Below are positions 34,460 through 61,392 of a stretch of DNA of 64,000 nt, piece after piece (position 1 is the stretch's first letter; each line of letters starts with the position of its first letter). A program made the translations under genes and the position numbers. The notes beneath the pieces were generated by a model, which searched no databases, was not told the origin of the DNA, and was given only the letters and a program-made list of their open reading frames with translations. Source of the stretch: Chloroflexales bacterium ZM16-3 (GTDB lineage Bacteria; Chloroflexota; Chloroflexia; Chloroflexales; Chloroflexaceae); contig RYFE02000001.1 in assembly GCA_004138175.2 (NCBI GenBank), positions 62,001-126,000 on the forward strand. The letters are read 5' to 3'.

Positions 34460-34885
34460 TCAAACCGGCCCAACCCGTCCGCGGGCCGACTGGATGATCC
34501 GTAGCAGCTCCTCATCGCTGGGGCCACCGCCGTGCTCCTCCCACCAGATCCGATACCAGCGCAGGTTCTCGCTGAAGGCCCAGATCACCTCCTCATTACT
34601 GAGGGGCGGCACCCGCTGCCGCAGATCATGCAGCACTTCCTGCCGATCACTGTCGCTCAGCTCGTCGATCGACTCGAGGATGCGCTCGGCGCGCAGCAGA
34701 AAGATCTCGCGCTCGATCGTCGGGAACTGATCACCGATCTGACGGATATTGCCCAGGTAGCAGATGGTGCGCTGGCGTGGCGCGCCCTTCTGATCACGGT
34801 AGCTTTCGACAAGGTAGGCGTCGAAGAAGCTTGTATCCGCGATGTTGGCGTTTTTATGTCGCCGGACGATCCAGCGGACGTACAT
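34460..34885 (-). CDS. Small protein resembling the N-terminus of IS1634-type transposases
   Basis: A 141-residue protein. MYVRWIVRRHKNANIADTSFFDAYLVESYRDQKGAPRQRTICYLGNIRQI resembles the N-terminal, probably DNA-binding, segment of some IS4/IS1634-superfamily transposases. Here it is a complete small gene with its own ribosome-binding site (GGAG 7 bases before the ATG) and a helical, charged C-terminal half, without a DDE catalytic domain. It may be a domesticated stand-alone domain or an unrelated small protein. It sits between MITE-like copy E and the giant gene. Confidence 0.65.
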   Translation of the reverse strand: MYVRWIVRRHKNANIADTSFFDAYLVESYRDQKGAPRQRTICYLGNIRQIGDQFPTIEREIFLLRAERILESIDELSDSDRQEVLHDLRQRVPPLSNEEVIWAFSENLRWYRIWWEEHGGGPSDEELLRIIQSARGRVGPV

Positions 34886-35098: not shown

Positions 35099-38000
35099 CT
35101 AGCGTACTACAAGCGGCAGGTAGACCTGATGGTTTTGCTGGAGCACTGGCTGGCTCAGCAGGTACTCGTGGCGCGCCCCGCCGATCTCGATCTCGACCAG
35201 CCAGTAGCTATAGCTCGCCTGCGTGTCGGCGTCGCTGTCGAGCCAGCTGTAGCTCGCGCCGCTCCCGCCTACGCCACGGGCCAGAATCATCGCCCCGCTC
35301 ACTTGTTCCGCATCGGCGCGGCTGCCCGTGGCGCTGCGGTAGATCTCAAACCCTGCGCTGTTCAGCTCTGTGCCGGTCGTCCAGCGCAGCAGGTTGCCGT
35401 TCTGCTGCTGCTCCAGGGTGAAGCTCAGCAGCGTGATCGCGGTTGGCGGGCGCGACATCCCGGCCCACCAGGTCAGATCGAGCGCGCCGATGCCCAGCGA
35501 GAAGACTTTTGTCCGCCCGCTGTTCGGGCTGGCGTCGCTGTCGATGCCGGTGTCGCTGCCCTGGCTCTCCGGGCTGATCGCCCAGCCCACAGGCGCGTAG
35601 AACTGAATGTAATAGTCGCCCGGCTCCAGGTCGGTGAAGATGAATGTTCCGGTGTCATCGGTGACGGCGCTGCCCACCAGGGTGCCGTCGCTGCGGTAGA
35701 GCTCGACGGTGACGCCGGGGATCCCGGCCTCGCCTGCCCCGAAGATACCATCGTGGTTGCTGTCCTCCCAGACGCGGTTGCCCACGCTGGCGAGCTGGTA
35801 GATCCCGCCGTCGAGGCTGTCGTCAGCCGCGCCGGGCGTCAGGCTAACCGTCCCGCTTCGCCCGCTGGCCCGGTCGATGTCGCTATCGGTGGCCGTGTTG
35901 CCGCCCTGGAGCGGCGGGCTGATCTGCCGGCCCGCCGGGCGAACGACTTCGATCTGATAGTCGCCCGCGCCCAGCTCGCGGAAGTGGTAGCTGCCGTCGC
36001 CCGCCGTGGTGGTCGTGCTGATCACGCTGCCGCCCTGGATGAGCTGTACGGCCACGCTGGGCACGCCTGTCTCGCCGCTGTCCTGCACGCCATTGGCGTT
36101 CGCGTCGTCCCAGATGAAGTCGCCCAGGCTGGCCGGCAGGTAGATCCCGGCGTCCCAGCTCAGGTCGTTCGCCCCACTGGCGAGGCTGAAGGTCGCGCTC
36201 TGGCCGCTGGCCCGGTTAGCGTCGCTGTCGATCCCATTGTCGCTGCCTCGATCCGCTGGGCTGGAGATGTAGCCCGTCGGCAGGTCGCTGAAGACGAGGG
36301 AGTAGTCGCCTGGCGTCAGGCCGCTGAAGCCATACACGCCACCCTCGGCCCCGACCATCGCCGTGGTGGTGCTGATCACCAAGGTGCCGTCGGCCTGGTA
36401 GAGCGTCACGGTGACGTCATTCACGCCGACCTCGCCCGTGTCCTGCACGCCGTCGCCGTCCAGATCATTCCAGACGCGGTTGCCCAGGCTGGCTAGGGTG
36501 TAGATGCCGGCGTCCCAGGTCGAGTCGTTCTGGCTGCTGACCAGATCGATGTCGGCTGTTCGCCCCGTCGTCGGGTCGGCGTCGCTGTCCTCTCTGCTGT
36601 CGCCGCCCTGGCCCTGTGGCGTGAAGTAGTAGTCCGTCGGCAGGCCGCTGAAGACCAGGTAGTAGCGGTCGGGTGCCAAGCTGATGAACTGGTAGAAGCC
36701 GTCGGCGTCGGTGGTCGTGCTGTCCACCAACGTCCCGTTGGAGAGGTAGAGGGTAACGGTGATGCCCTGCACGCCGGGCTCGCCCTCATTCTGTAGGCCG
36801 TTGGCGTTCAGATCCTCCCAGATCGTGTCGCCTAGGCTTGCGAGCTGGTTGATCCCGGCGTCCCAGCTGTCATCGCTCTCGCCGCTCGTCAGGGTGGTGG
36901 CGACCGTCTCTCCCGTGGTGCGGTCGGCGTCGCTATCCGTCGCGTCGTCGCCGCCCGCGTCGCGGCGGGTGAAGAAGTAGTCCATCGGCTTGCTGAAGAC
37001 GAGGTAGTAGTCGCCAGGCGGCAGGTCGCTGAACCCGTAGACCCCGCTGCTGTCCGTCGTCTTGCTGCCCATCAGGACATCATCGCCGCCGGGCAGTCCA
37101 TCGGCACCCGCGTCGTAGAGGGTGACAGTGATGTTGATCACCCCCGACTCTCCCCCGTCCTGCACGCCGTTGCCGTCCGTGTCCTCCCAGACCCGGTTGC
37201 CGATGCTGGCTGGCTTGAAGAGACCGAAGTCGACCGTCTGGTTGCCGTTGGTGTCGTCGCCGTCGGCGGCGCTGTCTGGCTCGCCGCCTGCGCTCAGGCT
37301 GACCGCCAGAGCTGCGATATCGCCGCCGGTGAGGCTACCGTTGTCGTCGTTGTCGCTGTCGTTATTCGGGCCAGGCGCGGGCTCGCTCGGCCCCGCCGTC
37401 AGGCTGTGCGCGCCGGTGCTGCTGCGGTAGCCGCTCAGCGCGCCGCTGAAGGTGCTGGCCGGCAGAACGACGATGTAGTCGCCCTGGACCAGCCCGGTGA
37501 ACTGGTAGAGCCCGCCGCCGGTAGTAGTGGTGGTGCCGACTAGGCTGTTGTCGCTGGCCCGGCGCAGCTCGACGGCTACGCCATTGATGCCGCTCTCGGT
37601 CGCGCTGTCGAACTGGCCGTCGTTGTTCAGATCGTCCCAGACCAGGTTGCCCAGGCTGAGTGTGTGGTAGATCCCGGCGTCCCAGTCCAGGTCGGTCTGC
37701 CCGGCGGTCAGGGTGATGGTCGTTGTGCTGCCGTCGGTCGGGCTGGCGTCGCTGTCGGTCGCGGTCGTGCCCTGGCCGGTCGGGCTGAAGACGTAGCTGG
37801 TCGGCAGGTTGCTGAAGACCACGCGGTAGTCACCTGCGGCCAGGTTATCGAAGCTGTAGAGCCCGCCGATGGTGGTGGTGCTGGTGACCAGTGCGTTCGT
37901 GCTGTCGTAGAGTGTCACGGTGACGTTGTTCACGCCGAGCTCGCCCGCGTCCTGCACGCCGTCGCCGTTCAGGTCGTCCCAGACGAAGTTACCCAGTCGG

Positions 38001-41000
38001 GCCGGCTTGAAGAAGCCGAAGTCGACCGTCTGGTTGCCGTTCCTGTTATCGCCGTCCACGCCGCTGTCTGGCTCGCTGTCCACGGCCAGGGTGATAGGCA
38101 GGCTGACCACGTCGCCGCCAGTGAGGCTGCCGTCGTCGTGGTTGTCCTGGTCGCCGTCGGGGTCTGCGGCGGCCTCGTAGGTGCCCGTGGCGCTGCCGTT
38201 CGTGCCGGTGCTGCTGATGTAGGCCGGTATAGCGCCGCTGGCAGCCAGTGCCCCCGTCCCTGTGAAGTTGTTCGCCGGGATGACCACGATGTAGTCGCCG
38301 GGGATGAGCTTGGTGAAGCCGTAGATCCCGCCGAGCTTGGTGGTGTCGCTGATGACGAAGGTGTCGCCCGCGCCATAGCTGCCATCGCCGTTGTCCAGGT
38401 AGAGGTCGACGGTTACGCCGTCGATGCCGCTCTCGGTGGCGCTGTCGAAGGTGCCGTTGTTGTTCAGATCCTGCCAGACCAGGTTGCCCAGGCTGAGCGG
38501 GCGGAACACGCCGAAGTCGAGGGTCAGGTTGCCGTTGGTGTCGTCGGTGTCGTCGGCGGTGTCCGGCTCGCCCTGCGAGGTTAGGGTGACGGGCAGGCTG
38601 GCCACGTTGCCGCTGCCGTCGGTGGTGCCGTTGTCATCGCTGTCGGGCGCCAGCGCCCCGCCGGTGTCCGGGTCGGGTGCCGGCTCGTAGGTGCCGCTGG
38701 CGCTGCCGTTCGTGCCGGTGCTGCTGACGTAGGCCGGCATGGTGGCGGTGGCGGCCAGCGTACCCGTGCCGCTGAAGTTGCTCTCCGGCAGGGTCACGAT
38801 ATACTCGCCGGGGACGAGGCTGTCGAACAGGTAGAACCCGCCGCCGGTCGTCGTGTCGGTCAGGGTGACGGCATTGCCCGCGCCATCGGTGCCAGTGAGG
38901 GTCACGGTCACGTTGTCGATGCCGCTCTCGCTTCCATCGAGCAGGCCGTTGTTGTTGAGGTCATCCCAGACCTGGTTGCCCAGGCGCACCAGACTGTAGA
39001 AGCCGGCGTCCCAGGTCGGGTCATTCTCGCCGCTGATCAGCTCGGTCACGGCGGTGCGCAGGGTGGCAGGGTCGGCGTCGCTATCGACCGTGTCGTCCGC
39101 GCCCTGGTTGGCCGCACTGGCCTTGTCGAAGCCGTCGGGCAGGCTGAACTGCACGTAGTAGAAGCCGGGGGTCAGGTTGGTGAAGGTGTAGACGCCGGTC
39201 GCGTCTGTGGTCGTCGCCGCGCCGACCTGCACATCGTCGATGCCGCCGAAGATGTGGTCCGCCCCTGCGCTATAGAGCGTCACTGTCGCTCCGGCGATCC
39301 CCGGCTCGCCGCTGTCCTGCACGCCATCGGCGTTCTGGTCGTGCCAGACGAGGTCGCCCAGGCTGGCCGGCTGATGGAAGCCGAAGTCGAGTGTCAGGTT
39401 GGTGTTGCGATCCGGGGCACCGTCCGGCTCCTGGCCCGAGCTCAGGTTGATGATTGGGCTGAGCGCCGCGCCGCTGGCGTTGCCGCTGCCGTTGTCGTCG
39501 TTGTTGTTGTCATTGTTCGGATCGGCGCTTGTGCCGATGTCGTTGGAGGAGCTGTAGTCGGCGGGCGGGGTGACGCGCACCACGTAGCCGCCCGGCTTGA
39601 GGTTGGTGAACAGGTAGAGCCCGTCGGTACCGGTGGTCTGGGTGGCGGTGGCGGCTGTCTCGTTCACGCCGCCGCTGCCGCTGTTATCTTCAATCGTGCC
39701 ATTGCCGTTGGCGTCAAAGTAGAGATCCACCGACGCCCCGGACAGCGGGCTGTCGATCACCGAGTCATACGTGCCGTTGTTGTCGCGGTCGATGAAGACC
39801 AGGTCGCCCAGGCTGAGTGTCTGGTAGAAGCCGAAGTCGAGGCTCAGGTTGGAGTTGTTGTCAGGCGTTATGTCGCCGTCGTTGGTCGGCTCCTGGCCCG
39901 AGCTGAGCGTGATCAGGTTGCTGTTGACCGGCGTGGCGACGCTGTCGCCGATGCCGTTGTCGTCGTTGTTGGTGTTGTTATTCGGGTCGGCGCTGCTGCC
40001 GATATCGTCGGAGGAGCGGTAGCCAGTGGGCGGGGTGATGCGCACCACGTAGCCGCCGGGCTTGAGGTTCTCGAAGAGGTAGAGCCCGTCGACACCGGTG
40101 GCCTGGGTGGCGGTGGCGATGGTCTCGTTCACGCCGCCGCTGCCGCTGTTATCCTCAAGCGTGCCATTGCTGTTGGCGTCGAAGAAGAGGTCAACGCCCG
40201 CCCCGGCCAGCGGGCCGTCGGTGCCGTCGAAGGTGCCGTTGTTGTCGCGGTCAATGAAGACCAGGTCGCCCAGGCTGAGCGTCTGGTAGAAGCCGAAGTC
40301 GAGCGTCAGGTTGGAGTTGTTGTCTGGCGTCGTGTCGCCATCATCGGTCGGCTCTTTGCCCGAGATCAGCGTCACCGTACCGCTAGAGACCTGGCCCGTC
40401 GTGCTGCTGCCGATGCCGTTGTCGTCGTTGTTCGTGTCATTGTTCGGCGTGGCGCTTGTGCCGATGTCGTCGGAGGAGCTATAGCCGACGGGCGGGGTGA
40501 CGCGCACCACGTAGCTGCCGGGCTTCAGGTTCTCGAAGAGGTAGAGCCCATCGGCACCGGTGGTCTGGCTGAGCACCAGGGTACCGGTAATGTCGCTGGC
40601 CGGGGTCGCCCCGTCGCTCTCCAGCAGTTCCACCGTCGCCCCGGATAGCGGGCTGTTGGTGCCGTCGAAGGTGCCGTTGTTGTCGCTGTCGATGAAGGCC
40701 AGGTCGCCCAGGCTGACTGGCTGGTAGAAGCCGAAGTCTACTGTGCGGTTCGAGCGATTGTCGGGGGCCTCGCCGGAATCGGGGTTGATCGCAGGATCAG
40801 TCTCGCTGGTCGGCTCGCTGTTACTGGGGCCGAGCGTGACGGTGCCGCTGCGGATGGCCCCGGCGACCGGCGTATCGAGGCCGTTGTCGTTACTGTCGCC
40901 GTCGTCATTGGGGTTGGCCTCCTGGCCCGCGCCGGTGCTGCTGTACAGGCCGACGAGCGGTTTGGCGCTGGCGAAGTTGTCGCTCACCATCTCGACAATG

Positions 41001-44000
41001 TAGTCGCCTTCGAGCAGGTTGTCGAAGCGGTAGTAGCCGCCGCCGCTGGTGTCCTGGTCGGCCACACTGATGCCGGTGGCATCGGTGACGGCGGACCCCG
41101 CGCTGGTGAGCAGGCGCACGGTCACGCCGTCAATGCCGGGGCTCGCGCCGTCGACGGCGTTGATCGTACCGTCGTTGTCGAGGTCACGCCAGACCCGGTT
41201 GCCCAGGCTGTAGGTCGGCGTGACGGTGATCAGGTAGTCCTCAACCTCGCCGTCGCTGGCCGGGCCGTCGGGGCCAAGGCCAACGTCGCTGCTCAGGCGG
41301 AAGCGCGCGCCGATCGGGGTGCTAAAGATGGCGGTATCGGGGACATTGAAGGTGATGGTCAGGTTGCCGCTGGTTCCGTTCGGCGCGGCGACCGTGACCT
41401 GCTCGCCAGTATCGGCGAAGTCGCCGTCGCCGTTGAAGTCGATAAAGCCATAGAGTGTCGCGTCGCGCCCGGTGCTGTTGGTCACCGCCACCGTCACGTT
41501 GGCGGGCAGGCCGGTGTAGAAGCTGGGCAGCGTCACGCCGTCCTCGTCGTCGGGGGTGCCGCTGGTATCGTCGCCGGTAGCGGTGTCGTTGGGCTGGCCA
41601 TTCGTCTCGGCGTCGATATTCGTTCCGATGCCCAGGCCGGTCGTGAGCGGATGATGTGGGCCTTCGGTGCCGCTGTTGTCAGTGTTGTAGCTCGGCAGGC
41701 CGACGCTGCCATTGGGCAGGTCGCTCCAGTCAGCCGGGACGAAGCCGAAGTCGATGTGTAGGTCGGAGTTGGCGTCGGGCGTGAGCAGGTTATCGCTCTG
41801 GGCCGGGCTGCCCATGCCGGGCGTAGTGGCCAGGGACTGATCAGACTCGCCAGTGGGCATGGTGCCCGCATTGAGCGTGATCGGCTGGCTGCGCACGGTG
41901 GTGCTGCTCAGGGTGACGCCATTGTCGTCGTTATCCTGAGCGTCGGGCGTACTGGCGTTGGTCGGGTCACGGCTGGAGTCTAGGCCGTCGATCGGCGTGC
42001 TTGTGCGATCCACCTCAACGATGTAGGTGCCCTTGGCTAGGCCGGTGAAGAGGTAGCGCCCATTGACATCGGTCGTCGTCGTGGCGAGTACGGTTGTCTC
42101 GTTCTCAGCAATCAGGCGCACGGTGACGCCATCGATACCGGGCTCGCTGCCGTTGCGGATGCCGTCGTTGGAGGTGCCGCCACCGCTGCCGTCGTCTAGC
42201 CAGACCAGGTTGCCCAGGCTCATGGCGTAGAAGCCGAAGTCGACGGTCTGGTTATCGTTGGCGTCGGGCCGCACAGTCGGGTTGGGCTCATCAACGTCGG
42301 GGCTCTCAAGCACCGGCTCGCCGCCGGGGCTGAGGGTGACGGGCAGGGCCAGTACGCCGCCGCTGTAGAATCCGCTGGCCTGGAGGGCACCGTTGTCGTC
42401 GCTGTCGGTCGCCGTAGCGCCCCCGGTGTCGGGGTCAGTCGGCGCGACCTCGCCAAGTGTGCCGTCAGCGCCCATAGTGGTGCCGCTGCTGAAGAGGCCA
42501 CTCAGCACGCTGCTGAAGTTGCTTGCCGGGATGCCGACCACGTAGGTGCCGGGGTTGAGCAGGCGCTGGGGCAATAGCCCAGTGCCGTTGGCGGCAGTGC
42601 GCTCGGTGAAGAGATAGGTGCCGTCGGCGGCGGTGGTGTCGACGGCGATCGGTGTTGTCTCACCGCCGTCGATACTACCGTTGCCATTGGCGTCGAAGAA
42701 CAGCTCAACGCGCACGCCGTTGATCCCGACCTCGGTGCCGTCGATCGTGCCGCTGTTGTTGGTGTCGTACCAGACCTGGTTGCCGACGCTGACCGGCTTG
42801 TAGAGGCCCGCGTCCCAGGTCATATCGCTCTCGCCGTCGCTCAGGGTGGTGCTGGCCATCACCCCGCTGGCGTCGGCGTCGCTGTCGACGGCGTCATCAG
42901 CGCCCTGGTTCTGTGCCGTGAAGACGTAGCCGCCGGGCGCGGTGACGTGGACAGAGTAGTCGTTCGGGATGAGGTCGGTGAACTGGTAGAGTCCAGAGGG
43001 CAGCGTGGTGGTCGTGCTGATCAGGGTCGCGCCTTGGTAGAGCGTCACCGTGACGCCGTCAATCCCCAGATCGCCCGCGTCCTGCACGCCGTTGCCGTTC
43101 ATGTCTTCCCAGACAAAGTCGCCAATGCTGGCCGGCCGGAACAGGCCAAAGTCGAGGGTCTGGTTGCCGTTGGTGCCGTCGCCGTCCACGCCGTTGGCCG
43201 GCTCCGTCCCGCTGGCCAGGGTGATCGCGAGGGTCGCGATGTCGCCGGAGCTAAGGAGCGAGCCGTTGTCGTCGCTGTCCCGATTCTCCGCTGGGGCACC
43301 GCTTGGGTCGTCCGGGTCGGGCGCCGGCTCGTAGGCACCGCCGACGCTACCGTTGGTGCCGGTGCTGCTGGTGTAGGCCGACAGGCCGCCGCTGGCCTGC
43401 AGCACGCCCGTGGTGAAGTTGCTCGCCGGGATGACGGCGATGTAGTCGCCGGGGATGAGGTTGGTGAAGCTGTAGATTCCGCCGAGCTTGGTGGTGTCGC
43501 TGATGACGAAGGTGTCGCCCGCGCCATAGCTGCCGTCGCCGTTGTCCAGGTAGAGATCGACGGTCACGCCGTTGATGCCGACTTCGCCATTATTGAACAG
43601 GCCGTCGTTGTCGGTGTCGTGCCAGACCAGGTTGCCCAGGCTGAGGTGCTGGAAGAAGCCCAGGTCCAGGGTTAGGTTGGTATTGGGGTCGGTGTCGCCG
43701 TCGTCCGTCGGCTCGTAGCTCGGGTTGAGGCTGATCGCCTTGGTGACGGCGTAGCCGGCCGGGTCGTCGGTGCCGTTGTCGTCGTTATTCCGGTTATTCG
43801 CCGCCGCCGCGCCCACCGGGTCGTCTGGGTCGGGCGCTGGCTCGTAAGCGTGGGTGGCCGCGCCATTAGAGCCCGTGCTGCTGCGGTAGAGGTAGAGCGG
43901 CTTCCCGCTGGCGAAGTTGCTGGCCGGGATGACCACGATGTAGTCGCCCTGCTCTAGGTCGGTGAACAGGTAGTTGCCATTGGCGTCGGTGGTCGTGGTC

Positions 44001-47000: not shown

Positions 47001-50000
47001 TCGCCGCTGCCGGTGGTGGCGGTGATCGCGGTCGTGTCATCGAGCGTGTCGAGCAGGCCATCGGGGCCGGCCCAGCGCAGGGTGACGGTCATGCTCGGGA
47101 AGGTCGGGCTACCCGCCTCCTGGATGCCGTCGCCGTTGACATCCTCCCAGACTCGGTCGCCCAGACTGGCCGGTCGGTAGAGGCCGGCGTCCCAGGTCGG
47201 GTCGTCCTCGCCGCTCACCAGGGTGGTGTTGATCGTCGCCCCAGTGGTGCGGTCGGCATCGCTGTCGATCTCATCAGGCGTGGCGCCGTTGCCGTTGTCT
47301 TTGAGTGTGATTTTATAGCCCGCTGGTGGGGTGAAGGTGACGTGGTAGCTGCCGGGGACGAGGTTGTCGAAGCTATAGGTTCCCGTGATCGACGTGGTAG
47401 TGGTCAGGGTGACGGTGTTGCCGACGTTGTCGGTGCCGTCGAGAGCGACTTCCACGCCGTCGATGCCGGGCTCAAGCGCGTCCTGGCGACCGTTGCCGTT
47501 CATGTCCTCCCAGACGAAGTCGCCCAGGCTGGCAAACTGGTAGAAGCCAGCGTCCCAGGTCGGGTCGTTCTCGCCGCTGGTCAGCTCGGTCACGGCGGTG
47601 CGCAGGGTGTCCGGGTCGGCGTCGCTGTCGACCGTGTCGTCCGCGCCCTGGTTGGCCGCGCTGGCCTTGTCGAAGCCGTCGGGCAGGCTGAACTGCACGT
47701 AGTAGAAGTCGGGGGTCAGGTTGGTGAAGGTGTAGACGCCGGTCGCATCGGTGGTCGTTGGGGTACCGACCTGCACATCGTCGCTGCCGCCGAAGACGTG
47801 GTCGGCCCCGGCGCTGTAGAGCGTCACCGTCGCCCCGGCGATCACGGGCTCGCCGCTGTCCTGCACGCCGTTGGCGTTCTGGTCGTGCCAGACGAAGTCG
47901 CCCAGGCTGGCCGGCTTGTACAGGCCCATGTCGCGGGTCATGTCGCTGGCCGAGATGGTGAAGTCGGTGATGGTGAAGCTGGTGTTGGCGTCGCTGTCTT
48001 TGGCGTCATCGCCGCCCTGATCCTGCGGGCTGAGCAGGTAGCCGGCCGGGATGTTGCTGAAGACAATATGGTAGGTGCCCGGGAAGAGATCCTCGAAGAG
48101 GTAGTTGCCGTCCAGGTCGGTGTAGGTGTAGTCCACCAGGCTCGCGCCCTGGTAGAGCTCGACCTTCACGCCGGGCACGCCGTTCAGCTCGCCCGGATCC
48201 TCAATGCCATTATTGTTTGCGTCGATCCACTTCTCATCTATATCCTGGATGCCGTTGGCGTTCAGGTCGATCCAGACCCGGTCGCCCAGATTGATCTTCG
48301 GGAAGATGCCGGCGTCCCAGTCCAGGTCGGTCTGCCCCGAGGCCAGGGTGATCAGGCCGGTCACTCCGGTGAGCTTCTGCCCGATGACATTGCCGTTAAT
48401 ATCGCGGATGGGCTCGATAACCGGGTTGACATCGCTGTCGAGCGCATCATTGCCGCCCTGGTCGCGCTGGGTGAAGGCGTGATCCGCCGGCAGGTCGCTG
48501 AAGATCAGGTAGTAGTTGCCCGGGGTCAGCTTGGTGAAGGTGTAGATGCCGGTCGCATCGGTGGTCGTGCTCGTCACCGTGATGCCGGCGCTGCTGTAGA
48601 GCGTGACGGTCACGTCGCTCACGCCGGTCTCGCCGCCGTCCTGGATGCCGTCCACATTCGTGTCGAGCCAGACCCGGTCGCCCAGGGCGGCCAGGTTGTA
48701 GACGCCCATGTCCCAGCTCAGGTCACTGGTGCTGGAGGGGAGGCTGATCAGCGGCGTCCGCATGGTCGCCGAAACGACGTCGCTGTCATTGTCGCTGTCG
48801 GCCGCCGCGCTGTTCTGCGGCGAGACTTCAGTGTAGCCAGTGGGCATGGCGAACTCAACGATGTAGTCGCCGGGGGCCAGGCCGCTGAACAGGTAGTTGC
48901 CGCTGGCGTCGGTAGTTGCAGTGCTGGGTTGGATTCCTGGGGTGGCGGGGTCGCCGTCCACCGGGTTGCCGGCGCTGTCGAGCAGAGCGACGGCCACGCC
49001 GCTGATCCCCGGCTCCCCCGGGTCCTGCACGCCGTTGGCGTTCAGATCGTGCCAGACCCGGTCTCCCAGCTTCGACTTCTGGAAGAGGCCGATGTCCCAT
49101 GTCAGGTCATTCTCACCGGGGATGAGGGTCGTCTGAATGGTGCGTAGCGAGGGGGCGACGTCGGAGTCGACGCTGTCACCGCCCTTGTCCTGCGGGCTGA
49201 GCAGGTAGGAGGTGTCCGGCAGAATGAAGGAGAGCCAATAGTCGCCGGGCTCCAGACCGCTGAAGCTGTAGTTGCCGCTGGTGTTGGTGACGGTGCTGTC
49301 GATCTCGGTGCCGCTGGCGTTGTGCAGGATCACCTGGACGCCGGCCACTCCGTTGCTCTCGCCGCTATCCTGGATGCCGTTGGCGTTAAGGTCGAGCCAT
49401 GCCTTGTCGCCAATGCTGGCTGTCTCGTAGATGCCGAAGTCCCAGCTGAGGTCATCCTGGCCTGCGATCAGGTGGGTCGGCGTGGTCTGGTAGGTGTTCA
49501 GGTCCGGGTCGGAGTCGACCGGGTCGGAGGTGAGCGTGTTTCCTCCCACATCACGCAGGCTGGTGCGGTAGCCGGCAGGCATGCTGAACTCAAGGTAGTA
49601 TTTGAGATCCGGGATCAGGTCGGTGAATGGGATCAGGTCGGTGAAGTGGTAGATGCCATTGCTATCGGTGGTGGTCGTCGCCACCGGCGTGCTTTCGTCT
49701 TCCCGGTAGAGCCGCACCGCCACGCCCGAGACGCCGACCTCGCCGATGTCTTGGATACCGTCGCGGTTGTAGTCGTTCCAGACCCGGTCGCCGATGCTGG
49801 CATAGGTGAAGAGGCCGATGTCCCAGCTCGGGTCATTCTCGCCTGGGTCGAGGGTGGTGGTCGCGGTGCGCCGGGTCTTCCTGTCGGCGTCGCTATCTTT
49901 GGTGTCGTCAATGCCGATGTTCTGTGGGCTGACGGCGTAGCCGGCCGGGATGTCGCTGAAGACCACGTAGTAGTCGCCGGGGGGCAGGTCGCTGAAGCCA

Positions 50001-53000
50001 TAGATACCGTCGATGCCCAGGGTAGTGGTGGTGGTGGTGGTGCCCACCAGGGTGTCGTCGGCCCGGTAGAGCTTCACGGTCACGCCATTGATGCCGGGCT
50101 CGCTGGCGTCCTGGATGCCGTCGCGGTTCTGGTCGTCCCATGCTCGGTCGCCGATGCTGGCCAGGGCGGACACTAGGCCGGCGTCCCAGCTCAGGTCGTC
50201 GTCGCCGTCGGCCAGGGTGATCAGGGTCGTCTCTCCGCTGGCCGGCTCAGGATCGGAGTCGCGCTCATCATTGCCGCCGAGATCGCGATCTGTGAAGCTG
50301 TTGCCCGCCGGCAGGTCGCTGAAGCGCACCTTGTAGTCGTCGGCGCTCAGCTCGGAGAAGCCGTAGCGGCCGGTCGAGTCGGTCGTCGTCGTCTTCAGGA
50401 CAGCGCCGCCCGCGTTGAGTAGTTCGACCGTCACGCCGGGCACTGCGGGTTCGCCGCTGTCCTGTATGCCGTTTTTGTTCGTATCGAACCAGACGAAGTT
50501 GCCCAGCGAGGCACCGCCGATCAGGCCAAAGTCGAGGGTCTGGTTGCCATCGCTGCCGTCGCCATCGATCAGGGTGCTCGGCTCGCCGCCGACGCTCAGG
50601 CTGATCGCCTGGCTGACGATCTGATTGACCGCGAGGTCGCCATTATCGTCGTTGTCGATATTGGTGTTCGGGTCGGGTGTCGGCTCGTTGCCGGTACTGG
50701 TGCGCAGGCCGTAGAGCGCGCCGCCGGGGGCGAAGTTGCTCGCGTCGATCGTGACGATATAGTCGCCCGCCACCAGATTGCTGAACTGGTACCAGCCCGG
50801 CTCGCCCAGGTGGGTGCTGGTGGTGGTGCTGCTCAGGTTCGTGTTTGTGCTGGTGGAGAGGGTCAGGCGCACACCGTCGATGCCATACTCGCCGTCGGCC
50901 GGGTCGTAGCGCCCGTTATTGTTCAGGTCGCGCCAGACCAGGTTGCCCAGAGTGAGGGTGCCCGCTGGCAAAGTCAGGCCGGCGTCGCGGGTCGGGTCGT
51001 ACTGGTTTGTCGTCAGGGTGAATGTGGCGGTGCGCCCGCTGGCCGGGTCGGCGTCGCTGTCCTGCGGGTTGGTGCCGCTTCCCTGCGTGGTGAAATTGGT
51101 GAACCCGGCTGGTTTGGTGAACTCGACATAATAGTCGCCAGGTGCAAGGTTATCGAAGAGGTAGTATCCGGGCAGCCCGAAGGGGTCGTTGGCGGTGACG
51201 GTGGTGCCGGCGGGGGCACCGCCCGCAGTATACAGATCCACCGTCACGCCATTCACCCCATCGTCGGCAGACTCGTCCTGGATGCCGTTCGCATTGCGGT
51301 CGATCCAGACATAGTTGCCCACAGCGGTGCTGGCGGTCAGGCCGGCGTCCCAGGTGATATCGATCTCGCCGGCGCTGAGCGTCGTGACCGGCGTGTAGTG
51401 GGTGGCCGGGTCGATGTCAGAGTCGATAGTGTCATCGCCGCCGACATCCTTCGTGGTGACACCGTAGCCGAGGGGCGGCGTGATGCGGGCGTAGTAGTCG
51501 CCGGGCGGCATGATTGACAGGTGGCGGCTGTCGGTGATCGGGTACGACGAGAAGAGGTAGTAGCCGGGGTTGCCGTCGTCGTCCGGCCCGCTGATGGTCG
51601 TATCCACCAGCCTATCGCCAGCGCTCTGGCCGGGGGTGCCGTCATCGTCGTGGAAGAGCTCGATCTTGACCCCGTTCACGCCGGCCGCGCCGTCGTTCTG
51701 GATGCCGTCATTGTTCTGGTCGAGCCAGACATAGTTGCCATAGGCCGGCGGCTTCGGCTGCTCACGCTCGATGCCGACGCGGGGCGGCTCGGGGGCCAGC
51801 AGGAACTCGGCCGCGCCGACGGCGCGGGCGCGGTAGCCGAAGGAGTTCCAGGCGATCTTTCCGGCAGTGACGGTCTCGGTATAGGGCGCTCGCATATGCA
51901 CCATCACCGTGACCGAGTCGTCAGGCTGGAGCACCAGGCCGCCGAAGTTGATCTTAAAGGACTGCACCGTGGTGATGTCGGTCGGCGGCGCACTACTCCA
52001 TATCGGCGCATCGCAGCTGGGGGATTCGTTGTCTGGGTCAATCCCGAGGTCGGGCACGCGGCAGGGGTTGTTCTGGGTGCTGTAGAAGACGCTCGCGCCC
52101 GAGGGCACCGTGATCGGCTCGACCAGGAAGGGCCGCCAATCAGTGCCGCGCGGGGTGGTGGCCTGCTTCACGCCCACGTCGCCGACCCAGGGCAGGATGT
52201 CGAGCAGGGTTAGCTCGCTGATCGGGATCGTCCCGGTGTTGGTGATCGTCAGCTGGTAGTCGGCGCTGCCGCCGGGCACCGTGTAGCCATGATCAGGATC
52301 GTGCGACCAGACCGTGTCGAGCTGGCCGAGCACCTCTTTGAGCGAGCCGCTGTTCGCCGTCGCCGCCAGGGTGACGCTAGAGATCGTCGAGCTACAGATC
52401 TGCTCCTGGGTGTTGCCGTCATTGTCATAGTCGAGCAGGTCGGCGCTGCTGCTTGAGCAGCTGTCCATCAGGATGTCGTCTGGCTGGTTGTCCCACCCAG
52501 AGAGATACCCCGTGTTGCTCAGCGCGCCAGAGGCGGTGTAGGGCGCGATGCGGGCCTGAAACTGAATCGTGATCGTCTCGCCGGGGGCTAGGCTGTAGGC
52601 GCTCGTGTCGATCCAGCGCCAGCGCAGCAGCGGCTTGCCGCCGCTGTAGTTCGGCACGATGTCGAAGATCGGGTTGGGCGCGCTCGCTGGTTTGGCCGTG
52701 ATCTTCTGGCTGCCATCCACATAGAGCAGGTCGCTCATCAGCAGATCCACGATCTGCGGGTTCACCAGAGGTGTGGTCAGGCTCTGGAAGCTATTATTTT
52801 TGAGAGTTAGGGTATAGGTGACGGTGTCGCCGGCGTTGACGATGTCTGGGTCGACGGCCTTGGTCACGCTCGGCCGTGCGCCGGGCGTGTAGACCACCAC
52901 ACGGGTGCGGGCGGTGCTCTGCCTGAGGATCTTGTGCCCGTTGAAGCTGAACTCAGCGTCAGCGGTGTTGACGATGATCTGGTTCACGGGCGCGCTGATC

Positions 53001-54301
53001 ACCTTGGCCATAAAGCCGTTACCGCTCACGGCGAAGCCGTAGGGCATCTGGTCGAGGTAGGTGTAGCGCAGGGCCGAGATGCGCTCGCCGACCCCCAGGA
53101 GGGTGATTGAGTTCGCACAGCCGGTGTTCGGGGCGATATCCACGCAGCCGGCGCCGGTGAAGGGCGAGCCGGGGACGCTTGTCCACGTTGTGTTCAGGTT
53201 GGTCTGATACTCGATCCGGAGGTTCAGCGTGTTGGTCAGGTTATGGGCCGCCGCGATGATCCGCGTTACCTCAAGCTCGACCGGGATGGTGTCGGTGAAG
53301 ACATGCGAGTCAAGCGGGCTGGTGCCGCTATTGCTTGAGCTAAAGCTGTAGGTGACGGTGTCGCCGACCTCGGCGTTGGCCGGCCCGCTCTTGCCAAAGC
53401 CGGGGTTCGGCGTGGGCGGCTGGATGAGGCGCACATCGAAGCCGCTCAGGCTCATCGTCGCGCCATTCAGGAAGGTCACATCTGCCGCGAGGTCGTTGCG
53501 GATCTCATCGCCGATATTGAAGGTGCCGGTTGGGAACTGGACGGTGACATTGTGGGTCAGGCAGGACTGGCCGGTGCTGACCAGGATGCTGGTGGCTGGC
53601 CATGTGACCGTCCCGGCGCCGGGGACGCCGCCGTCGGTGGCGCTGACGAAGGTCGATCCGAGCGGCAGGGTGTCGGTCATGACCACGCTGGTGATGTCGA
53701 CTGCACCGCTCGACGAGGGCACGCAGACCTGCACCTGGTAGACGGTGGGCAGGTCGAGCACGCCGCCGGAGACAAAGCGCTTGGTGGCGCGGGCGCTGGG
53801 CTGAGCGACGGCGGTGATCGGCAGCGGCTTCGAGATGACGGGCGGCGCGCTAGAGCCGCTCATCTCGGCGCGCAGGATGGCGATCGCCCCGTCGGGCGTG
53901 CTGCCCTTGGCGAAGCGCACCATCAGCGTAAAGGTGCCGGCGTCGCCGGGGGAGATGTCTGCTTTGAAGGTCCATGTTGCCGTTGATGTCGCCGGGTTGT
54001 AGGCCGGGGTCGTGAGGCCGCTGGGGTCAAGCGCCTGCACATCGCCAATTGCGCGGGCCAACTCAGCGGGGATGACGCTAGAGATCACCACATCGGAGCA
54101 GGCCACATTGAAGATCGCCGAGCAGCTGTAGTCCACCTTGATCACCGTCCAGTCGCCGCTGTTGACGATTGGCGTGGTGGTGCTCAGGCGCACCTCATAG
54201 CTGCTGCTGGCGGCGAGGACGATCCCACTCGGGAGCATGCTCCAGATCAGAATCGCAATAAGTGCATAAAAGGGGAGTGACCGGTGGGGGCGGTGCGACA
54301 T
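35099..54301 (-). CDS. Giant secreted SdrD-B-repeat surface protein, ~6,400 residues
   Basis: One uninterrupted frame of 6,400 codons. ATG 54301 has AAGGAG 9 bases upstream and opens with a signal peptide (MSHRPHRSLPFYALIAILIW...VLAASSS). Residues ~30-850 form DUF11/CARDB-like beta sandwiches (PSVTKAVDPDIVNAGDTVTYTLTLKN). I then count 38 SdrD-B/Cna-B-like repeats averaging ~143 residues, with consensus LGNxVWxDxNxDGxQD...GVTVxLY...GxYxFxxLxPGDYxV...DSDxD. The DxNxDGxxD loops look like Ca2+ sites. A GEVED-like domain interrupts the array (DNA ~41215-41735). The C-terminus is a fibronectin-like domain (ITLLSFTLEQQQNGNLLRWTTGTELNSAGFEIYRS) ending VYLPLVVR. There is no LPxTG or anchor helix. It is probably a Ca2+-stiffened surface fibre, sheath protein or adhesin. 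No frameshift is seen. Confidence 0.93.
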   Translation of the reverse strand: MSHRPHRSLPFYALIAILIWSMLPSGIVLAASSSYEVRLSTTTPIVNSGDWTVIKVDYSCSAIFNVACSDVVISSVIPAELARAIGDVQALDPSGLTTPAYNPATSTATWTFKADISPGDAGTFTLMVRFAKGSTPDGAIAILRAEMSGSSAPPVISKPLPITAVAQPSARATKRFVSGGVLDLPTVYQVQVCVPSSSGAVDITSVVMTDTLPLGSTFVSATDGGVPGAGTVTWPATSILVSTGQSCLTHNVTVQFPTGTFNIGDEIRNDLAADVTFLNGATMSLSGFDVRLIQPPTPNPGFGKSGPANAEVGDTVTYSFSSSNSGTSPLDSHVFTDTIPVELEVTRIIAAAHNLTNTLNLRIEYQTNLNTTWTSVPGSPFTGAGCVDIAPNTGCANSITLLGVGERISALRYTYLDQMPYGFAVSGNGFMAKVISAPVNQIIVNTADAEFSFNGHKILRQSTARTRVVVYTPGARPSVTKAVDPDIVNAGDTVTYTLTLKNNSFQSLTTPLVNPQIVDLLMSDLLYVDGSQKITAKPASAPNPIFDIVPNYSGGKPLLRWRWIDTSAYSLAPGETITIQFQARIAPYTASGALSNTGYLSGWDNQPDDILMDSCSSSSADLLDYDNDGNTQEQICSSTISSVTLAATANSGSLKEVLGQLDTVWSHDPDHGYTVPGGSADYQLTITNTGTIPISELTLLDILPWVGDVGVKQATTPRGTDWRPFLVEPITVPSGASVFYSTQNNPCRVPDLGIDPDNESPSCDAPIWSSAPPTDITTVQSFKINFGGLVLQPDDSVTVMVHMRAPYTETVTAGKIAWNSFGYRARAVGAAEFLLAPEPPRVGIEREQPKPPAYGNYVWLDQNNDGIQNDGAAGVNGVKIELFHDDDGTPGQSAGDRLVDTTISGPDDDGNPGYYLFSSYPITDSRHLSIMPPGDYYARITPPLGYGVTTKDVGGDDTIDSDIDPATHYTPVTTLSAGEIDITWDAGLTASTAVGNYVWIDRNANGIQDESADDGVNGVTVDLYTAGGAPAGTTVTANDPFGLPGYYLFDNLAPGDYYVEFTKPAGFTNFTTQGSGTNPQDSDADPASGRTATFTLTTNQYDPTRDAGLTLPAGTLTLGNLVWRDLNNNGRYDPADGEYGIDGVRLTLSTSTNTNLSSTTTSTHLGEPGWYQFSNLVAGDYIVTIDASNFAPGGALYGLRTSTGNEPTPDPNTNIDNDDNGDLAVNQIVSQAISLSVGGEPSTLIDGDGSDGNQTLDFGLIGGASLGNFVWFDTNKNGIQDSGEPAVPGVTVELLNAGGAVLKTTTTDSTGRYGFSELSADDYKVRFSDLPAGNSFTDRDLGGNDERDSDPEPASGETTLITLADGDDDLSWDAGLVSALASIGDRAWDDQNRDGIQDASEPGINGVTVKLYRADDTLVGTTTTTTTLGIDGIYGFSDLPPGDYYVVFSDIPAGYAVSPQNIGIDDTKDSDADRKTRRTATTTLDPGENDPSWDIGLFTYASIGDRVWNDYNRDGIQDIGEVGVSGVAVRLYREDESTPVATTTTDSNGIYHFTDLIPFTDLIPDLKYYLEFSMPAGYRTSLRDVGGNTLTSDPVDSDPDLNTYQTTPTHLIAGQDDLSWDFGIYETASIGDKAWLDLNANGIQDSGESNGVAGVQVILHNASGTEIDSTVTNTSGNYSFSGLEPGDYWLSFILPDTSYLLSPQDKGGDSVDSDVAPSLRTIQTTLIPGENDLTWDIGLFQKSKLGDRVWHDLNANGVQDPGEPGISGVAVALLDSAGNPVDGDPATPGIQPSTATTDASGNYLFSGLAPGDYIVEFAMPTGYTEVSPQNSAAADSDNDSDVVSATMRTPLISLPSSTSDLSWDMGVYNLAALGDRVWLDTNVDGIQDGGETGVSDVTVTLYSSAGITVTSTTTDATGIYTFTKLTPGNYYLIFSDLPADHAFTQRDQGGNDALDSDVNPVIEPIRDINGNVIGQKLTGVTGLITLASGQTDLDWDAGIFPKINLGDRVWIDLNANGIQDIDEKWIDANNNGIEDPGELNGVPGVKVELYQGASLVDYTYTDLDGNYLFEDLFPGTYHIVFSNIPAGYLLSPQDQGGDDAKDSDANTSFTITDFTISASDMTRDMGLYKPASLGDFVWHDQNANGVQDSGEPVIAGATVTLYSAGADHVFGGSDDVQVGTPTTTDATGVYTFTNLTPDFYYVQFSLPDGFDKASAANQGADDTVDSDADPDTLRTAVTELTSGENDPTWDAGFYQFASLGDFVWEDMNGNGRQDALEPGIDGVEVALDGTDNVGNTVTLTTTTSITGTYSFDNLVPGSYHVTFTPPAGYKITLKDNGNGATPDEIDSDADRTTGATINTTLVSGEDDPTWDAGLYRPASLGDRVWEDVNGDGIQEAGSPTFPSMTVTLRWAGPDGLLDTLDDTTAITATTGSGDYGFTDLIPGDYRVEFGSAPTNYAYTDQNSGADDAVDSDVNPANGRTSTVSLESNQDDPTWDAGLYQLLSLGNRVWDDTNNDGLLNYAEAGINGVTVRLYRDSNGNGTIDAGAESTAVATTTTSNGGAYLFSGLTQGKYLVEIVAPAGYISSTGINGSASGPYEPASPSAADSDDNGTTSGAVIRSAVLDLVPNATPQAEADLTMPTATTNPSRDENSDLTIDFGLFKPAQLGNFVWFDRDANGVQNGGDETGIMGVTVTLLDSAGNPVDGDPVTVNTQTITTTTNASGIYAFTNIIPGTYRVGFDLPTGYEFSPTGKGTATTDSDTDPVTGKTATLTLTAGQSDQTWDTGLYQRVGLGNQVWDDLNNDGTFDSLTELGISGVTVNLSGTNGLGNTVTDSVTTDATGIYTFTNLIPGEYVVTLPASNFSGAGKLAASGDLPAYVSSTGTVGSATGDSEPAPDPDDNVNNDDNGSTDGSGNVASLRVTLRSQNEPALAADTDDTNGNLTVDFGVFRPLSLGDLVWNDTDNDGLFNNGEIGIDGVTVQLYQGATLISTTTTLSSGLYLFDKLIPGDYVVVIPASNFTGTGALRYFRSSDGGALTDSATDPDDNVNNDDNGVGPSDGVATGSVSSAAVTLSIGGEPINDGDTNSNSNSNLSVDFGFYSLGLGNLVWSDANNDGLKDAAEVGLDGLTVSLYYDADNSGTINGGEATTPVATITTSNGGHYFFGDLRDGGRYQIGVDTGGPDWVSSTGGANGMPTGTYEPGTTVTGDASDIDNDDNGTQATGNTVTSTIFRVTLGTQPTGEADTGMPSGATNRATDESTNLTVDFGLFNHARMGDWVWYDTNGNGVQDAGETGGVDGVTVKLYQGATLISTTTTLASGFYGFSYLMPDTYSVTFDTIPAHYGISPQNSGADDAKDSDADEITGTTATFTLAAGDNDTNWDMGIYPLLSLGNLIWDDLNDNGTVDAGEPGFKDVIVELYRDTDNSGSYDVLTDTLVLTTTTDANGNYLFTDLEQGDYIVVIPASNFASGKPLYLYRSSTGSNGAATHAYEPAPDPDDPVGAAAANNRNNDDNGTDDPAGYAVTKAISLNPSYEPTDDGDTDPNTNLTLDLGFFQHLSLGNLVWHDTDNDGLFNNGEVGINGVTVDLYLDNGDGSYGAGDTFVISDTTKLGGIYSFTNLIPGDYIAVIPASNFTTGVLQASGGLSAYTSSTGTNGSVGGAYEPAPDPDDPSGAPAENRDSDDNGSLLSSGDIATLAITLASGTEPANGVDGDGTNGNQTLDFGLFRPASIGDFVWEDMNGNGVQDAGDLGIDGVTVTLYQGATLISTTTTLPSGLYQFTDLIPNDYSVHVTAPGGYVFTAQNQGADDAVDSDADASGVMASTTLSDGESDMTWDAGLYKPVSVGNQVWYDTNNSGTIDGTEVGINGVRVELFFDANGNGSIDGGETTPIAVDTTAADGTYLFTERTAANGTGLLPQRLLNPGTYVVGIPASNFSSVLSGLFSSGTTMGADGTLGEVAPTDPDTGGATATDSDDNGALQASGFYSGGVLALPVTLSPGGEPVLESPDVDEPNPTVRPDANDNQTVDFGFYAMSLGNLVWLDDGSGGGTSNDGIRNGSEPGIDGVTVRLIAENETTVLATTTTDVNGRYLFTGLAKGTYIVEVDRTSTPIDGLDSSRDPTNASTPDAQDNDDNGVTLSSTTVRSQPITLNAGTMPTGESDQSLATTPGMGSPAQSDNLLTPDANSDLHIDFGFVPADWSDLPNGSVGLPSYNTDNSGTEGPHHPLTTGLGIGTNIDAETNGQPNDTATGDDTSGTPDDEDGVTLPSFYTGLPANVTVAVTNSTGRDATLYGFIDFNGDGDFADTGEQVTVAAPNGTSGNLTITFNVPDTAIFSTPIGARFRLSSDVGLGPDGPASDGEVEDYLITVTPTYSLGNRVWRDLDNDGTINAVDGASPGIDGVTVRLLTSAGSAVTDATGISVADQDTSGGGYYRFDNLLEGDYIVEMVSDNFASAKPLVGLYSSTGAGQEANPNDDGDSNDNGLDTPVAGAIRSGTVTLGPSNSEPTSETDPAINPDSGEAPDNRSNRTVDFGFYQPVSLGDLAFIDSDNNGTFDGTNSPLSGATVELLESDGATPASDITGTLVLSQTTGADGLYLFENLKPGSYVVRVTPPVGYSSSDDIGTSATPNNDTNNDDNGIGSSTTGQVSSGTVTLISGKEPTDDGDTTPDNNSNLTLDFGFYQTLSLGDLVFIDRDNNGTFDGTDGPLAGAGVDLFFDANSNGTLEDNSGSGGVNETIATATQATGVDGLYLFENLKPGGYVVRITPPTGYRSSDDIGSSADPNNNTNNDDNGIGDSVATPVNSNLITLSSGQEPTNDGDITPDNNSNLSLDFGFYQTLSLGDLVFIDRDNNGTYDSVIDSPLSGASVDLYFDANGNGTIEDNSGSGGVNETAATATQTTGTDGLYLFTNLKPGGYVVRVTPPADYSSSNDIGTSADPNNDNNNDDNGSGNASGAALSPIINLSSGQEPDGAPDRNTNLTLDFGFHQPASLGDLVWHDQNADGVQDSGEPGIAGATVTLYSAGADHIFGGIDDVQVGAATTTDATGVYTFTNLTPGFYYVQFSLPDGFDKASAANQGADDTVDSDADPATLRTAVTELISGENDPTWDAGFYSLVRLGNQVWDDLNNNGLLDGSESGIDNVTVTLTGTDGAGNAVTLTDTTTGGGFYLFDSLVPGEYIVTLPESNFSGTGTLAATATMPAYVSSTGTNGSASGTYEPAPDPDTGGALAPDSDDNGTTDGSGNVASLPVTLTSQGEPDTADDTDDTNGNLTLDFGVFRPLSLGNLVWQDLNNNGTFDSATESGIDGVTVDLYLDNGDGSYGAGDTFVISDTTKLGGIYGFTKLIPGDYIVVIPANNFTGTGALAASGAIPAYISSTGTNGSATGTYEAAADPDGDQDNHDDGSLTGGDVVSLPITLAVDSEPDSGVDGDNRNGNQTVDFGFFKPARLGNFVWDDLNGDGVQDAGELGVNNVTVTLYDSTNALVTSTTTIGGLYSFDNLAAGDYRVVFSNLPTSYVFSPTGQGTTATDSDASPTDGSTTTITLTAGQTDLDWDAGIYHTLSLGNLVWDDLNNDGQFDSATESGINGVAVELRRASDNSLVGTTTTTGGGLYQFTGLVQGDYIVVLPASTFSGALSGYRSSTGAHSLTAGPSEPAPGPNNDSDNDDNGSLTGGDIAALAVSLSAGGEPDSAADGDDTNGNQTVDFGLFKPASIGNRVWEDTDGNGVQDGGESGVINITVTLYDAGADGLPGGDDVLMGSKTTDSSGVYGFSDLPPGDYYLVFSKPMDYFFTRRDAGGDDATDSDADRTTGETVATTLTSGESDDSWDAGINQLASLGDTIWEDLNANGLQNEGEPGVQGITVTLYLSNGTLVDSTTTDADGFYQFISLAPDRYYLVFSGLPTDYYFTPQGQGGDSREDSDADPTTGRTADIDLVSSQNDSTWDAGIYTLASLGNRVWNDLDGDGVQDTGEVGVNDVTVTLYQADGTLVISTTTAMVGAEGGVYGFSGLTPGDYSLVFSDLPTGYISSPADRGSDNGIDSDANRASGQSATFSLASGANDLSWDAGIYLPASLGDFIWDDANANGVQDSGETGVPSVAVQLIQGGSVISTTTTAGDGSYHFRELGAGDYQIEVVRPAGRQISPPLQGGNTATDSDIDRASGRSGTVSLTPGAADDSLDGGIYQLASVGNRVWEDSNHDGIFGAGEAGIPGVTVELYRSDGTLVGSAVTDDTGTFIFTDLEPGDYYIQFYAPVGWAISPESQGSDTGIDSDASPNSGRTKVFSLGIGALDLTWWAGMSRPPTAITLLSFTLEQQQNGNLLRWTTGTELNSAGFEIYRSATGSRADAEQVSGAMILARGVGGSGASYSWLDSDADTQASYSYWLVEIEIGGARHEYLLSQPVLQQNHQVYLPLVVR
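35450..51750 (-). repeat. Coding array of 38 SdrD-B-like repeats
   Basis: About 16.3 kb of tandem protein-coding units averaging ~430 bp. Most are diverged at DNA level, but some pairs are nearly identical over several hundred bases (39002-39370 against 47560-47900; the units near 39800-40750 among themselves; 38200-38480 against 43340-43640). Array limits are approximate. Confidence 0.85.
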
Positions 54302-54699
54302 CGGGAGTCTCCTTGGGCTCAGATGGCTTGACAATGTAGTGCTACAGCTATGACGGATGGAGAGGGAATTGGGATGTAACTATCGTAGATCACTCGGCTT
54401 ACGACGGTATGCCGCAGAGGTGTATGGATCGCGGTGGTACGGGGCAATCTAAAGGCAAGGCTATAGATGGCTTGTGGATATGTTGCCGTTGATGTTGGGC
54501 ATCTCTTATTGGGAGGGAAAGGCCATCAAGGGATGGAAAACTGCTCACGTTGCCGCCTTGCCTAAGATGAGCAAGGATGTTCGCTCGGATGTCATGCATT
54601 AGCTTCGCAATCAGAACCAATTGCTTTTATAGCGAAAATATATTGTGACATGATGAACTATCCGCACTGGATTGCATATTAGAGACGTAGAAAATAGTT

Positions 54700-54729: not shown

Positions 54730-54770
54730 GCCTTATCTTGCGTCAAGCAGTTGCACGGCTTTTGTAAATA

Positions 54771-54799
54771 TTGAAGCTTCTTTTGCCATATGCTATACT
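54771..54799 (+). promoter_or_regulatory. Promoter candidate
   Basis: TTGAAG (54771-54776), 17-bp spacer, TATACT (54794-54799). About 240 bases before the PucC-type gene; implies a long 5' leader if used. Confidence 0.45.
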
Positions 54800-55040
54800 C
54801 CTCGCCATCAAGTCTTCATAAAAAAGTTGGCGTGACAAAGCGCTCTAGCGGCTACCCGTACCTCTCATCGGGCCACGCAGCTGCGATCGCACTGATGTTG
54901 TGTGCCCATCGACCAAGACGGGGTTGTCTGTAGCAAGTCGAGTAGGTGGTACGCACAGCATGTGCTCGGCCTTGCGTCCTATCTCCTCCGCTTCCCTCCT
55001 GGGTGTCGTTTCCGCGATCTGTAGAAATGAGGATGCCCTG

Positions 55041-56473: not shown

Positions 56474-56956
56474 ATGATGTACACACCCGATCAACTTGCT
56501 CGCCGTGAGCGCTCGAAGTGGACGCGCGTGCAGATCATCCTCGCGCCCATCCAGTTCGTCGCCTTCCTGATTAGCTTCGGGCTAGTCATCCACTACCTCA
56601 TCACTGGCCAGGGCTATCTGGCGGCGACGATCAGCATCTGGGTCAAGATCAGCTTGATCTGGGCGCTGACGATCACCGGGATGCTCTGGGAGTACGATAT
56701 GTACGACCACTACTTTATGGCGAAGGAGTTCTTCTGGGAGGATCTGGGCAACCTGATCGCCATCCTGACCCATAATGCCTACTTTCTGGCCAAGTGGGTT
56801 GGTGCCGATGAGCGCACCGTGATGTGGGTCATGGTCTTTGCCTATGTGACGTATCTGTTCAATGCCACGCAGTTTATCGTTCGGGGAGTCCGCTCGGCCC
56901 GCCAGCGCCGCGCGTTGCAGCAGGGTGCCAGCGCACAGTCCGTAGTTCGCAGCTAA
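56474..56956 (+). CDS. bchF: 3-vinyl bacteriochlorophyllide hydratase
   Basis: A 160-residue membrane protein with three to four helices. YTPDQLARRERSKWTRVQIILAPIQFVAFLISFGLV, GMLWEYDMYDHYFMAKEFFWEDLGN and HNAYFLAKW match BchF, which adds water to the C3 vinyl group of (bacterio)chlorophyllide to give the 3-hydroxyethyl form. The histidines and acidic residues in DMYDHYFMAKEFFWED are the probable active-site group. Family length is about 150-170 residues. ATG 56474 or 56477 may be used; no strong ribosome-binding site is visible. bchC, the next enzyme of the route, follows after 56 bp. Confidence 0.93.
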   Translation: MMYTPDQLARRERSKWTRVQIILAPIQFVAFLISFGLVIHYLITGQGYLAATISIWVKISLIWALTITGMLWEYDMYDHYFMAKEFFWEDLGNLIAILTHNAYFLAKWVGADERTVMWVMVFAYVTYLFNATQFIVRGVRSARQRRALQQGASAQSVVRS

Positions 56957-57012
56957 ATAGCCGGGGGGCCATTGTTGGCCATCGGGGCAAGTGAGAAGGC
57001 AACGGATCTCCT

Positions 57013-58045: not shown

Positions 58046-58062
58046 GCTCCGAAGGAGCGCAC

Positions 58063-59292: not shown

Positions 59293-59315
59293 GATGGTAG
59301 TAGATCTATCTCGAA

Positions 59316-61377: not shown

Positions 61378-61392
61378 ATACGAGGCGATATT

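Follow-up and report, generated by a model that had tools for sequence, protein, structure and literature searches.

A giant gene of G000, the genome under study, which belongs to a filamentous phototroph of the Oscillochloris type, probably encodes a fibre that would extend about 150 nm at the cell surface, judging from the domains predicted in its product. The gene lies in the 64-kb window (the whole stretch of DNA analysed here), and its product combines a Sec signal peptide, an N-terminal head, a stalk of 38 SdrD-type B domains, an end domain and a C-terminal YLP-box (Table 1). The favoured reading, which we consider reasonably probable, is that this protein forms a Ca2+-stiffened, C-terminally anchored fibre that would keep an adhesive head at a distance from the filament and serve in aggregation, mat attachment or gliding; it is the anchoring, orientation and function of the protein that we infer here. 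Giant fibrillar surface proteins are already known as a kind. What is new is that the proposed fibre consists of B domains, ends in a putative sorting tail that is specific to the lineage and is encoded at a locus that is kept with the bacteriochlorophyll genes in two genera.

Table 1. Features of the giant gene and its neighbourhood (positions in the window)
Feature	Position	Strand	Basis and remarks
Giant surface-protein gene	35099..54301	-	Uninterrupted frame, orthologues; 6,400 residues + stop
Shine-Dalgarno sequence AAGGAG	54309..54314	-	7 bases upstream of ATG; read directly
Sec signal peptide, residues 1-30, ending VLA|A	54212..54301	-	Read directly
N-terminal head, residues 31-854	51740..54211	-	50-94% identity in close relatives
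DUF11 match, residues 478-605	52487..52870	-	Pfam PF01345, above cut-off
Array of 38 SdrD-B-type repeats, residues 855-6283	35453..51739	-	Pfam, own repeat model, fold of last repeat
GEVED domain, residues 4283-4359, interrupting the array	41225..41455	-	Pfam PF20009, 57.3 bits (cut-off 24.4)
Ig/fibronectin-like end domain, residues 6285-6389	35135..35449	-	Sequence resemblance; model low-confidence
YLP-box C-terminus HQVYLPLVVR	35102..35131	-	NCBIfam models and motif enrichment
Near-perfect hairpin of ~60 bases just past the stop codon	34997..35056		-50.4 kcal/mol, z -9.1
140-aa protein of no Pfam family, directly downstream of the giant gene	34466..34885	-	Conserved
Response regulator/histidine kinase hybrid, member of the conserved locus	32779..34239	-	Homology in relatives
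Conserved non-coding block, giant-gene side	54603..54646		82% over 44 bp with G002; also aligned in G004
Conserved non-coding block, pucC side	54743..54801		85% over 60 bp with G002; aligned in G004 and G013
PucC-like transporter, divergent	55041..56393	+	Pfam PF03209; listed frame from 54900, homology begins near 55041
bchF	56474-56956	+	NCBIfam
bchC	57013-57999	+	NCBIfam, just below curated cut-off
bchX	58063-59292	+	NCBIfam
bchI	60206-61309	+	NCBIfam
bchD	61324-63360	+	NCBIfam; bch block 56474..63360

The giant gene lies on the minus strand; its start codon is an ATG at 54301, its stop codon occupies 35099-35101 and no internal stops interrupt the frame. This bears out a sequence-only reading of the same DNA, which had described one uninterrupted frame of approximately 6,400 residues but had not stated the strand. 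That reading had also raised the worry of an assembly collapse. Collapse is unlikely: relatives have colinear repeats, and exact repeats within the gene are at most 56 bp long, with none reaching 75 bp, so the gene is resolvable by ordinary reads. Uninterrupted orthologues of 5,564, 5,995 and 5,540 codons are encoded by the single-contig genomes G138, G154 and G231, respectively (G138 is presumably Chloroflexus aurantiacus J-10-fl, and G231 presumably C. aggregans DSM 9485). The gene is under purifying selection: dN/dS against G004 is approximately 0.33 for the head and 0.44 for the repeats at residues 855-3700. All of this argues against an assembly artefact or a dead gene, an explanation that we regard as extremely improbable. 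Its support comes from several relatives whose contigs stop within the repeats and from the G004 copy, which is split into two overlapping frames of 4,489 and 2,211 codons (G004:C1, around 119600-120000; L032-L033). The split is a frameshift or sequencing error in G004.

The earlier reading ranked the product among the largest bacterial proteins, which is fair, although its size is not exceptional. Proteins with 5,000 or more residues number over 41,000 in UniProt across all life, a sizable share of them being bacterial (PMC11573180), and the orthologue in G023 is an 11,832-codon frame with about 70 B-type repeats (G023:C103:397-35895; L040, L041). Rfam and tRNA scans of the window gave no matches.

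The signal peptide is plain in the sequence (MSHRPHRSLPFYALIAILIWSMLPSGIVLA|AS) and, like the DUF11 domain, had been recognized previously. The head that follows it contains all ten cysteines of the protein. A Pfam scan of the head for an adhesive domain yielded only DUF11 and no recognised adhesive fold, and a comparison of the head with the PDB by sequence, including for an N2-N3 A region, matched no solved structure. A structure model of the head built from two sequences had a pLDDT of 29 and was set aside. Elsewhere in the window, a second, small DUF11-type protein is encoded at 12146-13384 (plus strand). At the other end of the giant protein, the end domain has four related copies elsewhere in G000. 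It had been called fibronectin-like, and the resemblance in sequence stands, but Pfam FN3 does not match this domain and the structure model is of low confidence there.

The stalk makes up most of the protein. Pfam SdrD_B (PF17210) matches 18 and 20 stretches in the two halves of the protein, with more than 1,400 bits per half. The repeats were counted using a model derived from short repeats of the protein itself; of its 39 matches, two are parts of one repeat, which gives the same 38 SdrD-B-like repeats as the sequence-only reading. The DxNxDGxxD-type loops proposed in that reading are likewise present. The first Ca2+ loop, which is EF-hand-like, is retained in 37 of the 38 repeats, as is a DSD-type loop, and the N-strand W/F-x-D is found in every repeat. 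Overall, the protein has 31 EF-hand-like 12-mers (mean in the shuffled protein: 0.2). The closest solved structures to the repeats by sequence are SdrD and UafA. Structure prediction of single repeats had been suggested as a check, and a model of the last two was confident (pLDDT mostly 85-96), with the last repeat superposing on SdrD B1 (Z 18.2-18.4, rmsd 1.6 A over 113-114 residues). By Pfam, PDB sequence matches and the fold of the last repeat, these are true SdrD-type B domains. The GEVED-like domain noted earlier is also genuine, scoring well above the cut-off (Table 1).

In SdrG and SdrD, three Ca2+ ions hold the fold of the B domain and raise its unfolding force to approximately 2 nN, and the folded length of SdrG B1 is 4 nm (PMC6232131). 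With this borrowed length, simple arithmetic (38 repeats of approximately 4 nm) predicts that the stalk would measure approximately 150 nm if extended, in keeping with the earlier expectation that a stretched molecule would be well over 100 nm. The bridging of cells or the formation of a sheath, for which the earlier reading judged such a length sufficient, is conjecture. The array has no cysteines and a net charge of approximately -628 without Ca2+. Isopeptide-type locking of the repeats was considered and is unlikely, with 52 lysines among 5,429 residues.

Most repeats in the first half of the array match their positional counterpart in G004 (72-94%), and many of them match Chloroflexus-type genomes in the same order (approximately 50-67%). 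As the early repeats are colinear with those of Chloroflexus-type genomes, the repeats are individually conserved. Repeats 24-29 of the compared list match Chloroflexus poorly (approximately 35-45%). Concerted evolution of the repeats was rejected, as most are most similar to their own positional counterpart in G004; the exception is a pair at residues 2132-2257 and 4980-5106 (90% identity), which is the result of a recent duplication or conversion. These comparisons point to an old, individually conserved array with lineage-specific growth in its middle. The number of repeats in complete relatives is 17 to about 70.

Strong head orthologues were identified in 21 of the 82 genomes of the order, G000 included. 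The remaining 61 have no detectable orthologue, and so neither life as a filament nor gliding requires the giant protein as a rule. Among named relatives, Oscillochloris sp. ZM17-4 is the nearest. A search of relatives for an orthologue in the same place, another check suggested earlier, was successful: the gene is divergent to pucC-bchF...bchD in G004, G002, G013, G138, G154, G222 and G231, Chloroflexus thus being included. The annotation of C. aurantiacus has the same bchF-C-X-I-D order (Caur_0415 to 0420; PMC3150298). On the downstream side, the 140-aa protein (94% identity in G004, 64-66% in Chloroflexus-type genomes; no match in a Pfam scan) and the response regulator/kinase are also kept in G004 and in those Chloroflexus-type genomes with enough sequence. 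The hairpin between the giant gene and this protein is without a clear U tract and is possibly a terminator or a mobile-element remnant.

The bacteriochlorophyll neighbourhood that had been pointed out is therefore real (PucC-like, BchF, BchC, BchX, BchI and BchD) and its linkage is conserved, but it is not obligatory. The sequence retrieved around the gene revealed neither pucC nor bchF in G008, G010, G015, G016, G022, G023, G033, G233 and G237 (some of these contigs are short), and a BchF search in G033, which has an orthologue, gave no match at all. Because the orthologue is unlinked elsewhere and one relative is without a detected bchF, a photosynthetic function is not implied. The linkage to the pucC-bch genes is an old conserved gene order in Oscillochloris and Chloroflexus, which is not in itself functional proof. 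The intergenic region between the giant gene and pucC is approximately 740 bp long (49% GC) and had been proposed as a shared control region. Conserved blocks do exist in it, but each gene side has a separate block (that on the pucC side overlaps TTGAAG-17-TATACT, a promoter-like site identified in a promoter scan). Joint control is unproven, and co-regulation with the photosynthesis genes was set aside as these two blocks give no evidence for it.

The C-terminus of the protein scores above the cut-offs of two NCBIfam models, both named 'YLP-box putative sorting motif' (NF050076: 18.1 bits, cut-off 15; NF053834: 15.5 bits, cut-off 10). As NCBIfam already models the YLP-box, the idea that the motif was undescribed was dropped. 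Its distribution was counted by pattern searches for a strict motif in DNA form ([YF]-L-P-L-[VI]-x-R-stop), with the pattern read backwards as a control. This motif has 19 matches in G000 (backward control: 2) and 573 in 69 genomes of the order (backward control: 30); most other classes of the phylum yield few matches or none. The small genomes of genus g21 in family f4 (G027 and G246-G253) have hardly any YLP-box matches and encode 1-2 sortases. All 19 matches in G000 end long frames (447-6,426 codons) that have apparent signal peptides as judged by a scripted hydropathy check, not SignalP. Including the giant gene, these frames are found on contigs C1, C34, C35, C39, C40, C41, C49, C50, C52, C58, C73, C84, C103, C106 and C117 (window and L070-L085). 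Based on their sequences, the proteins that they encode likely include a subtilase, a C11-type peptidase with NHL repeats, a C25-like peptidase, a GH5-like enzyme, a GDSL-like enzyme and DUF11 proteins. The presence of YLP tails behind unrelated domains and simple linkers indicates that the motif is modular.

Two candidate routes for the YLP-box were rejected. All 69 genomes of the order encode sortases, those poor in the motif as well as those rich in it, and so sortases do not track the YLP-box as a cognate enzyme might. An exosortase (PEP-CTERM type) route was dropped as PF09721 was absent from G000 and from 39 other genomes of the 41 searched, with a match in one control genome. A literature search found no paper on the YLP-box (peptide strings led to unrelated proteins, and 'YLP motif' to arthropod cuticle and gene names). 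The giant protein belongs to a class for which no described machinery was found, and we know of none.

Operation of the fibre can be pictured from these parts. The precursor would be exported via the Sec pathway, after which each B domain would be locked by Ca2+ to give a stiff and very strong stalk. The end domain and YLP-box may hold the C-terminus at the outer envelope layer, such that the stalk would present the cysteine-containing DUF11 head outward, to the substrate or to neighbouring filaments, with a reach set by the number of repeats. The role served would be aggregation, mat attachment or surface gliding.

The main rival to an adhesive fibre is a coat or sheath role, in which many copies lying side by side would form the fibrillar layer of the filament and would have no specific adhesive role. 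External layers of 30-50 nm have been observed on Chloroflexales filaments of two species, and in another species of the order a dense fibrillar layer meshes into a planar density approximately 72 nm out (PMC7332563). Very acidic repeats with many Ca2+ sites could also cross-link to a gel. That such layers exist also supports the favoured reading, but a fully extended fibre of 150 nm would reach beyond those seen by cryo-ET, which counts against that reading; the fibre may be bent, lie flat or be something other than the layer component. Conservation of the head at 50-94% across genera fits a specific role, while the several-fold variation in repeat number among relatives suits a tether over a coat of fixed thickness. 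As many filamentous relatives are also without the giant protein, we consider a coat unlikely.

More doubtful than a coat, and rather improbable, is a gliding adhesin of the SprB type, which would be anchored to moving surface elements and pull the filament. An orthologue is encoded by G231, the genome taken to be C. aggregans. SprB, with approximately 6,500 residues and filaments of approximately 150 nm, is equal in size to the giant protein, and filamentous Chloroflexota, C. aggregans among them, are listed as gliders with cell-surface movements cited (PMC13104615). Against this, no T9SS-type signal was seen in the protein and no SprB repeat family was found in the Pfam scan (E 0.001). A search of 41 genomes for SprA gave no match, but no control genome matched either, and this result is given no weight. 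Furthermore, no orthologue was found in families f3 and f2, as far as these were searched, and f3 probably includes the gliding Herpetosiphon. The adhesive fibre is preferred to both rivals. In an extended form of it, which is speculative and very unlikely to hold as a whole, the protein would be the main force-bearing adhesin for aggregation and gliding in Chloroflexus and Oscillochloris. It would be a Ca2+-locked fibre of approximately 150 nm that the YLP-box directs to a lineage-specific, as yet undescribed system of secretion or anchoring, with expression tied to the adjacent bch operon and surface behaviour that follows the phototrophic state.

To our knowledge, no proteins have been identified for the adhesins or surface layers of filamentous Chloroflexota. 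The giant protein provides one large candidate surface protein, encoded at a conserved locus in a lineage with both fibrillar coats (as seen by cryo-ET) and gliding. In a non-pathogen, it would furthermore take to a natural extreme the B-domain fold, whose staphylococcal members were the strongest measured (PMC6232131).

Among known systems, the repeats are closest to those of the staphylococcal MSCRAMMs SdrD, SdrG and UafA, with which they share Ca2+-binding B domains of approximately 110-120 residues, a WxDxNxNGxQDxGE loop, sequence and fold. The giant protein has 38 B domains, whereas the staphylococcal adhesins have a few, and it is without a recognised dock-lock-latch A region. Unlike the Sdr adhesins, it has no Ser-Asp repeats, LPXTG tail or C-terminal membrane helix and ends instead in a YLP-box; HQVYLPLVVR is not a tail of the LPXTG type expected of a sortase substrate. 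Its two halves score 833 and 783 bits against the NCBIfam SdrD model (NF012181), below the cut-off of 2,500. Among YLP-box proteins (NF050076, NF053834), it far exceeds in length the other 18 strict-motif proteins in G000, and its Chloroflexus orthologues have a looser form of the motif (YRVLVPIIQR). The giant protein resembles Flavobacterium SprB in size, expected fibre length, predicted secretion and the gliding of its host lineage, but has other repeats and no T9SS signal that could be found. With 38 tandem repeats, it has the tandem stalk domains by which fibrillar adhesins are recognised. Very long surface proteins are also represented by Giant1-5 of Apilactobacillus (PMC12863079) and by a 7,651-residue adhesin of Mobiluncus with tandem Ig-like domains (PMC10619420). 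The domains of the Mobiluncus adhesin are covalently cross-linked, whereas the repeats of the giant protein have few lysines and no cysteines and carry Ca2+ loops instead.
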